Assembly: GCA_016870115.1 (NCBI GenBank)
Contig: VGCH01000008.1
Span: 62,001 to 126,000, forward strand
Length of the DNA: 64,000 nucleotides
Direction: 5' to 3'
DNA from: Alphaproteobacteria bacterium
GTDB lineage: Bacteria > Pseudomonadota > Alphaproteobacteria > Reyranellales > Reyranellaceae
Shown: positions 39,267-41,290 of the stretch, piece by piece
How the letters are laid out: each line of letters begins with the position of its first letter
Numbering within the stretch: the stretch's first letter is position 1
Notes under the pieces: model-generated
What the model was told of the DNA's origin: nothing
Databases searched by the model: none
What the model saw: only the letters and a program-made list of their open reading frames with translations
Translations under genes and position numbers: made by a program

Positions 39267-40475
39267 CTAGCCCAACGCCTGAACCAGATCGGCGACGATA
39301 TCGTCGGCATCCTCGAGGCCGACCGAAATCCGCACAGTGCCCTCGCCGATTCCGAGCTTGGCGCGTTCGGCGGCACCAATGCGCATGTGCGTCGTGGTCG
39401 CGGGATGGGTGATCAGGCTCTTGGCATCCCCGAGATTGTTGGAGATGTCGACCAGACGCAGCCGGTTCAACATGGCGAAGGTCTCGGTCTTGCCGCCCTT
39501 GAGATCGAACGTGACCACCCCGCCGCCACCCGACATCTGGCGCATCGCGAGTGCGTGCTGCGGATGGTCGGGCCGCGCCGGATACAGGGCGCGCGCGATC
39601 TTCGGATGGCCGCTCAACGCCTCGGCGAGTCGCGCGGCATTGGCGCAATGCCGCTCCATGCGCAGCGACAGCGTCTCCATGCCCTTCAACAGCACCCAGG
39701 CATTGAACGGCGAGAGCGCCGGGCCCGTGTTGCGGATGATCGGCTGCAGCTTGTCGAGGATGAAGGCGCGCGTGCCCAGCACCGCGCCGCCCAGCATCCG
39801 GCCCTGCCCGTCGATGTACTTGGTGGCCGAGTGCACCACCACGTCGGCGCCCCATTCCAGCGGACGCTGCAGGATCGGCGTGGCGAAGGCATTGTCGAGC
39901 ACCACGGTGGCGCCCGCGCGATGCGCGAGATCGCAGACAGCGCGGATGTCGACAATGTCGAGCATCGGGTTGGAGGGCGATTCAAACAGCACGGCTTGCG
40001 CGGGGCGGGACAGCGCCTTCTCCCACGCCACGAGATCGCCGCCATCCACCAGCTCGCTCTCGATGCCATAGCGCGGCAGCAGCTCCGCCACGATGTAGTG
40101 GCAGGAACCGAAGAGCTGGCGCGCCGCCACGACGCGGTCGCCCGCCTTCAGGAGCGCGAGCAGGGCGAAGAACACGGCGGCCATGCCGGTCGCGGTGCCA
40201 CGACAGGCCTCCGCGCCCTCAAGAGCCGCGAGCCGGTTCTCGAACATCGTGACGGTGGGATTGCCGAAGCGCGAATACTGGTAGTGCGCACTCTCGCCCT
40301 TGAAGGTCGCCTCCGCCTCCTCGGCGCTGGGATAGGCGTAGCCCGACGTCAGGAACAGCGCCTCCGAGGTCTCGTCGTAGTCCGTGCGCAGCTGGCCAGC
40401 CCGCACGGCGCGCGTCTGCGGCTTCCAGTTGCGCGCATCCGGAGCCGCCTTCGGCTGGGGGGGAACGCCCGTCAT
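39267..40475 (-). CDS. metZ: O-succinylhomoserine sulfhydrylase
   Basis: 402-residue PLP enzyme of the Cys/Met metabolism family, making homocysteine directly from O-succinylhomoserine and sulfide. Landmarks are GQLRTDYDETSEALFLTSGY (residues 26-45, with the SGYAY segment), YSRFGNPTV, the PLP lysine in VHSATKYIDGQGR, and the C-terminal ISVGLEDADDIVADL. The ATG at 40475 has a GGAGA site 8 nt upstream. An in-frame start at 40529 would lie inside the leader terminator and is rejected. Expression should fall when S-adenosylmethionine is high, through the leader described separately. Confidence 0.93.
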   Translation of the reverse strand: MTGVPPQPKAAPDARNWKPQTRAVRAGQLRTDYDETSEALFLTSGYAYPSAEEAEATFKGESAHYQYSRFGNPTVTMFENRLAALEGAEACRGTATGMAAVFFALLALLKAGDRVVAARQLFGSCHYIVAELLPRYGIESELVDGGDLVAWEKALSRPAQAVLFESPSNPMLDIVDIRAVCDLAHRAGATVVLDNAFATPILQRPLEWGADVVVHSATKYIDGQGRMLGGAVLGTRAFILDKLQPIIRNTGPALSPFNAWVLLKGMETLSLRMERHCANAARLAEALSGHPKIARALYPARPDHPQHALAMRQMSGGGGVVTFDLKGGKTETFAMLNRLRLVDISNNLGDAKSLITHPATTTHMRIGAAERAKLGIGEGTVRISVGLEDADDIVADLVQALG

Positions 40476-40490
40476 CACCGTCTCCACAAC

Positions 40491-40519
40491 AAAAAACCCC
40501 CGACCGGACGGACGGGGGT
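40491..40519 (-). terminator. Intrinsic terminator in the metZ leader
   Basis: Read on the minus strand, ACCCCCG and CGGGGGT (7 bp) enclose a 10-nt loop and are followed by six T residues within the downstream arm's tail. It lies between the SAM-II aptamer and the metZ ATG. Its 5' arm CCCCCG (40518-40513) is also the 3' arm of a competing hairpin, CGGAGGTGC/GCACCCCCG (40534-40513, one A-C mismatch), which would act as antiterminator. Confidence 0.85.
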
Positions 40520-40531
40520 GCCAAAGCACCT

Positions 40532-40587
40532 CCGACCTTTTAGCGATGATTAACGTGGTCGCAAGCCGGTCGGCTCAAATCCCCACG
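40532..40587 (-). ncRNA. SAM-II riboswitch upstream of metZ
   Basis: Minus-strand RNA with the SAM-II (metA-motif) signature: P1 CGTGG (40587-40583) with CCACG (40558-40554), the conserved GATTTG after P1, CGGCTTGC, CACGTTAA and the tail CGCTAAAAGG. The pseudoknot helix is CCGACC (40573-40568) with GGTCGG (40537-40532), six perfect pairs. SAM-II elements bind S-adenosylmethionine and repress methionine genes in alphaproteobacteria. Here the tail also feeds an antiterminator/terminator pair, suggesting transcriptional control of metZ and the tenA-like gene. Confidence 0.95.
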
Positions 40588-40653
40588 AAGCGCATTCTCT
40601 TTGGCGGGAAGCGCGCGCCAAGGCAAGCGCATTGAGATTCCATCAAGTGCTAT

Positions 40654-40664: not shown

Positions 40665-40916
40665 ATGAGGCGCGTGAACACCCACGAGGCCAAGACGCAA
40701 CTCTCGCGCTTGATTGACGCCGTACAGGGTGGCGAGGAGATCGAGATCTGCCGCGCCGGCAAGCCGGTCGCGCGTCTCGTTCCACCACCCCGCCAGCGCC
40801 GGGCGCCGGAGGTCGGATTCTGGGAAGGGCAGGTCACGCTCCACCCGGGCTGGGAGGCCGACGCCGAGATCGAGGCGATGTTCGAGCCGTCGTTGAACGA
40901 GCGCGACCCAAAGTGA
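40665..40916 (+). CDS. Phd/YefM-type antitoxin
   Basis: 83-residue antitoxin. The N-terminal Phd/YefM DNA-binding fold is recognisable in VNTHEAKTQLSRLIDAVQGGEEIEI (by its first 20 residues) and RAGKPVARLVP. The acidic C-terminal tail (EADAEIEAMFEPSLNERD) should wrap and neutralise the PIN toxin. It overlaps the toxin gene by 4 nt (GTGA), the usual arrangement for coupled translation. A palindrome before the start is a plausible self-regulatory operator. Confidence 0.9.
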   Translation: MRRVNTHEAKTQLSRLIDAVQGGEEIEICRAGKPVARLVPPPRQRRAPEVGFWEGQVTLHPGWEADAEIEAMFEPSLNERDPK

Positions 40917-41290
40917 GACTGCTGCTCGACACCCACGCGATGATCTGGATGGTCGGCGAGCCGGCGATGCTCGCGCGACCCGCGCTGGCGGCGCTGGCGG
41001 ACCCCGACAACGACCGATGGGTGAGCATCGCCACGATCTGGGAAATCGCCACCCTGTCAGCGAACGGCAGGCTGAGCTTCCCGCCGAGCTACACCGAAGC
41101 GCTGCAGCGGACTCTCACGACGCTGCTGCCGATCCCGTTGGCGCATGTCGAGCGTGCGGCGTCACTGCCGTTCCACCACCGCAATCCGTTCGATCGACTG
41201 CTGATCGCGCAGGCGATGGAGGAAAGCCTCACCGTGGTGACGCGCGACCGGCGCTTCGCCGCTTACGGCGTGGCGGTGCTGCCCGCGTAG
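40913..41290 (+). CDS. PIN-domain toxin, VapC type
   Basis: 125-residue PIN-domain ribonuclease toxin. The first catalytic Asp is in LLLDTHAMIWMVGEP, further acidic residues follow in STIWEIATLS-like sequence (seen as IATIWEIATL), and the last acid cluster is NPFDRLLIAQAMEE with the closing LTVVTRDRRFAAYGV. VapC toxins cleave tRNA or rRNA; the target here is unknown. It starts with GTG inside the antitoxin stop. The pair sits beside the metZ riboswitch and may be a small horizontally acquired module. Confidence 0.9.
   Translation: MRLLLDTHAMIWMVGEPAMLARPALAALADPDNDRWVSIATIWEIATLSANGRLSFPPSYTEALQRTLTTLLPIPLAHVERAASLPFHHRNPFDRLLIAQAMEESLTVVTRDRRFAAYGVAVLPA

Follow-up and report, generated by a model that had tools for sequence, protein, structure and literature searches.

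The metZ leader and its SAM-II aptamer

The window analysed here, a 64-kb stretch of DNA, carries on its minus strand the methionine-biosynthesis gene metZ, the closest relatives of which are found in Reyranella and in Reyranellaceae and Rhodospirillales bins, so that the DNA itself is most likely from this group. The gene begins 45 nt beyond a SAM-II aptamer, and an intrinsic terminator is located between the aptamer and the start codon (Table 1). The aptamer region aligns with the full length (positions 1–79) of the Rfam model SAM_alpha (RF00521) at 56.2 bits (E 6e-10, gathering score 36). It is the sole Rfam match returned by cmscan for the whole window, and no other SAM-II was found when the genome of the organism was searched. 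The RNA has the H-type pseudoknot of its class, in which the loop closed by P1 (CGTGG/CCACG) pairs with the 3' tail to form P2 (CCGACC/GGTCGG). All conserved segments, namely GATTTG, CGGCTTGC, GTTAA and CGCTAAA, are present in the Rfam alignment. The covariance score, the two helices and the protein-family match of the gene bear out the preliminary description of this DNA, which had named a SAM-II with this P1 and a 6-bp pseudoknot before metZ. Judged by its sequence, the riboswitch is an ordinary but well-preserved SAM-II, which would be expected to bind SAM in preference to SAH, as is characteristic of the class.

Table 1. Features of the metZ leader in the window.
Feature	Position	Strand	Basis
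SAM-II (SAM_alpha, RF00521) aptamer	40520–40596	-	cmscan
P1, 5' strand CGTGG	40583–40587	-	sequence, Rfam alignment
Arm a, pseudoknot (P2) 5' strand CCGACC, in the P1 loop	40568–40573	-	perfect 6-bp complement to arm b
P1, 3' strand CCACG	40554–40558	-	sequence, Rfam alignment
Arm b, pseudoknot 3' strand GGTCGG, doubles as 5' part of the antiterminator	40532–40537	-	sequence, pairing
Antiterminator 5' strand GGTCGGAGGTGC	40526–40537	-	10 of 12 pairs with 40521–40510, -18.3 kcal/mol
Antiterminator 3' strand GCACCCCCGTCC	40510–40521	-	pairing and fold energy
Arm c, terminator 5' strand ACCCCCGTCC, common to the antiterminator	40510–40519	-	pairing and fold energy
Arm d, terminator 3' strand GGTCGGGGGT, holds a second copy of arm b	40496–40505	-	pairing and fold energy
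T6 (U-tract) of the intrinsic terminator	40491–40496	-	sequence
metZ, O-succinylhomoserine sulfhydrylase, ATG at 40475	39267–40475	-	TIGR01325, 570 bits (cut-off 510)

A GGAG lies just upstream of the metZ ATG, outside both the aptamer and the terminator. Two alternative starts further upstream were rejected: an in-frame GTG at 40529, which overlaps the GGAGG itself, and a TTG at 40524, which opens an out-of-frame ORF of 101 aa (40219–40524) and is not kept in relatives.

Antiterminator and terminator helices

Three pairings of four arms make up the leader. Arms a and b form the pseudoknot, b and c together with an extension form the antiterminator, and c and d form the terminator. The antiterminator (GGUCGGAGGUGC/GCACCCCCGUCC) includes all of the GGUCGG arm and is interrupted by a U.U and an A.C mismatch; its energy corresponds to a z-score of -4.1 and was reached by none of 200 shuffles. 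The terminator (ACCCCCGuCC/GGuCGGGGGU, then U6) has nine pairs around a U.U mismatch and a computed energy of -17.7 kcal/mol (z -3.5), with one of 200 shuffles as good. It is a near-copy of the pseudoknot: the terminator 5' arm is similar to the loop arm, and GGUCGG recurs in the 3' arm (40505–40496).

Both helices had been recognised beforehand at the right position, but as shorter ones: the antiterminator as 8 of 9 pairs at 40534–40513, and the terminator as the six pairs CCCCCG/CGGGGG before T6. The second copy of GGTCGG, in the terminator 3' arm, had been overlooked. Taken alone, the 8-pair antiterminator has -13.4 and the 6-bp terminator -11.8 kcal/mol. The proposal that pseudoknot, antiterminator and terminator are mutually exclusive is upheld by the antiterminator strands, which are common to the aptamer and the terminator and are kept in relatives. 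The three helices recur across the family and in most of the class-wide sample of SAM-II leaders.

One U of arm c has no pairing partner in either b or d. At this central base (window 40512), 49 of 86 family leaders have T and 13 have C; it is possibly a tuned mismatch common to the antiterminator and the terminator.

A simple pattern scan of the locus for promoters and terminators found neither. The terminator was probably missed because its internal U.U mismatch is disallowed in the scan, and the promoter probably because of a weak -10 element. Relatives have a conserved promoter, CTTGC-N17/18-TATAG, directly before P1. The corresponding stretch of the window (40594–40621, minus strand) has no TATAG box, and its best promoter candidate is TTGGCG-16-GAGAAT.

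Folding of the growing and the complete leader

When the growing transcript is folded from arm b onwards, the antiterminator is complete at 40510–40509, before arm d exists, with -18.3 kcal/mol. With b blocked, as it would be by the pseudoknot when SAM is bound, only a 5-bp hairpin (-8.3) is left and the terminator takes over in the fold series. A local GGUGC/GCACC hairpin persists with b blocked, in competition with the terminator base. For refolding of the antiterminator into the terminator, the computed path barrier is about 9.0 kcal/mol as long as b is free and 2.6 kcal/mol once it is blocked; the means over 86 family leaders are 8.8 and 3.3 kcal/mol. With an assumed prefactor of 1e6–1e7 per second, the free arm gives a half-time of 0.15–1.5 s, as opposed to near-instant refolding when it is blocked. 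These energies and barriers are model numbers, and the estimates make a kinetic switch plausible.

At equilibrium, the terminator is favoured in the complete leader whether or not b is blocked; in the fold with a free b (-23.0), this arm pairs with CUUUGGC in a hairpin not kept in the sequences of relatives. Read-through would thus depend on kinetics.

Conservation across the family and the class

SAM-II was present in all 75 Reyranellaceae genomes searched and in 190 of 385 genomes from a class-wide sample. The comparison set comprised 228 distinct SAM-II leaders, mostly alphaproteobacterial, and 211 of them carry a terminator, called where a hairpin with an energy no higher than -8 kcal/mol precedes a T-tract within 150 nt. 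The arms of these terminators were scored in 195 leaders, among which close relatives are over-represented, and in 264 controls, which were other terminator-like hairpins from the flanks of the same loci. With at most one mismatch, the complement of the leader's own arm b was found in the terminator 5' arm of 71% of leaders and 10% of controls, and a repeat of b in the 3' arm of 79% and 13%, respectively. Exact repeats in the 3' arm occurred in 60% of the scored leaders versus 1% of the controls. At the same tolerance, the class-wide subset outside the family had the complement in 48 and the repeat in 54 of 87 leaders. Among leaders from outside the family, b and c pair in register at 90% of positions, compared with 22–62% when the arms are slid by 1–3 bases, a comparison that somewhat favours in-register pairing because the register was picked on the terminator consensus.

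Position-specific matching separates real from control terminators clearly, whereas the duplex energy of b with the terminator arms does so only modestly. When b was permuted within each locus, most loci showed above-average gains, with many ties because b consists almost entirely of G and C. Locus-specific covariation of b with c (permutation P 0.07–0.10) is not demonstrable, as arm b is nearly invariant. Relatives that keep the aptamer without the antiterminator or terminator arms had been named at the outset as evidence against the switch; the arms are kept in the family and in most leaders of the class. There is about an even chance that, in most alphaproteobacterial SAM-II riboswitches, the terminator closely copies the pseudoknot and the 6-nt tail strand toggles between SAM sensing and termination. 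If this holds, a pseudoknot-copying terminator would be the general rule for expression platforms of the class rather than a peculiarity of metZ.

Several Reyranella relatives (loci L136, L138, L140, L162 and L180) carry a further SAM-II before metX, its terminator laid out in the same way. The window organism's own metX (locus L297) is without SAM-II, which possibly reflects loss or non-gain.

Relation to known SAM-II riboswitches

SAM-II was defined as the metA motif by Corbino et al., 2005 (PMC1273637; RF00521), with the same P1, P2 pseudoknot and conserved loops, and no difference in the aptamer was found between the metZ riboswitch and the family as described there. The same work reported that many SAM-II leaders have a terminator between P2 and the ORF, and Barrick and Breaker, 2007, described SAM-II as the one class that in alpha- and betaproteobacteria is most frequently linked with terminators. 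For Sinorhizobium meliloti metZ, SAM-induced termination was predicted by Scheuer et al., 2022 (PMC9373788), with supportive RNA levels. Its SAM-II yields an RNA about 100 nt long, as a terminated transcript would be, and this RNA is commoner in rich medium. This terminated sRNA, RZ, shares with the present locus the aptamer class, the target gene, the terminator platform and the OFF logic. The terminated-size RNA has been detected in S. meliloti, whereas the Reyranellaceae locus is known from its sequence. In Gluconobacter oxydans, which belongs to another family, a SAM-II likewise precedes the O-succinylhomoserine sulfhydrylase gene (PMC5756330). Coverage of that metZ leader is 20-fold above that of the gene, and the RNA-seq data indicate termination and agree with a predicted terminator/antiterminator pair.

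The preliminary description had considered an explicit transcriptional layout informative, since SAM-II switches are often described as translational. That argument is contradicted by the terminator-linked SAM-II known by 2007 and the metZ termination reported in two species. The same layout was previously known from other alphaproteobacteria; the mechanism put forward for it here is well supported by the sequence, and its claim to novelty fails. What is added is a Reyranellaceae genus to the range of a methionine-feedback mechanism already known; a search of the available literature for work joining Reyranella with riboswitches found none. An explicit count of pseudoknot copying in terminators was likewise not found in the accessible portions of the SAM-II literature searched, which covered main texts outside subscription journals. 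The widespread reuse of the pseudoknot in terminators makes a rarely measured transcriptional SAM-II mechanism testable by a few point mutations.

Proposed mechanism and alternatives

The SAM-II described here very probably switches metZ off at the level of transcription. At low SAM, GGUCGG (b) would pair with the freshly made GCACCCCCGUCC (c), and the resulting antiterminator would let RNA polymerase read through into metZ. Once SAM is bound, the pseudoknot with CCGACC (a) would hold b, at a predicted cost to the antiterminator of about 10 kcal/mol. Arm c, thus freed, would then pair with GGUCGGGGGU (d), giving the terminator. The antiterminator/terminator pair is compact and nearly isoenergetic, which suits an in vitro test.

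It is improbable that the terminator is blind to SAM and merely a constitutive attenuator behind the aptamer. The minimum free energy fold of the full-length leader does include the terminator with or without b, and the terminator downstream of the S. meliloti metA SAM-II, on which SAM is predicted to have no effect, has been proposed to be such an attenuator (PMC9373788). A SAM-blind terminator, however, leaves the strong and widely kept b:c complementarity unexplained, and the computed refolding barrier falls by about 6 kcal/mol on blocking b.

Less probable still is a translational switch, in which a ribosome-binding site (GGAGG, 40533–40529) is masked by the pseudoknot and the terminator plays a secondary part. 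The textbook mechanism of SAM-II is direct occlusion: the metX RNA of crystal structure 2QWY, which has the same aptamer fold, is read in this way (PMC10907184), and S. meliloti metA SAM-II acts via its Shine-Dalgarno sequence (PMC9373788). The end of arm b runs into the GGAGG, but relatives keep no usable start codon for this motif, the GTG overlapping it and the TTG being out of frame. Unlike that of the target gene in a translational SAM-II, the Shine-Dalgarno sequence of metZ is not inside P2; the gene has its own GGAG beyond the terminator. The wide retention of both terminator and antiterminator also speaks against occlusion. An antitermination pairing of a with d (CCGACCGG, 40573–40566, with CCGGTCGG, 40507–40500) in place of b:c is the least credible, as this perfect complement of eight pairs, the inner six of which follow from d copying b, is present in most relatives only as the 6 bp implied by the copy, and b is closer to a and transcribed earlier than d, which also pairs with c.

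Neighbourhood of metZ leaders

Divergent from the metZ leader, two overlapping ORFs of 83 and 125 aa occupy 40665–41290 on the plus strand. They read like a putative VapB-type antitoxin and a PIN-domain VapC toxin; an NCBIfam search of the second ORF, the putative VapC, gave no match. At metZ loci of Acetobacteraceae and related bacteria (L062–L082), many leaders have a tRNA gene just upstream on the opposite strand. Several of these tRNA-flanked leaders (e.g. L062 and L073) are without a SAM-II above the Rfam threshold, and several have an adjoining SAM-II.
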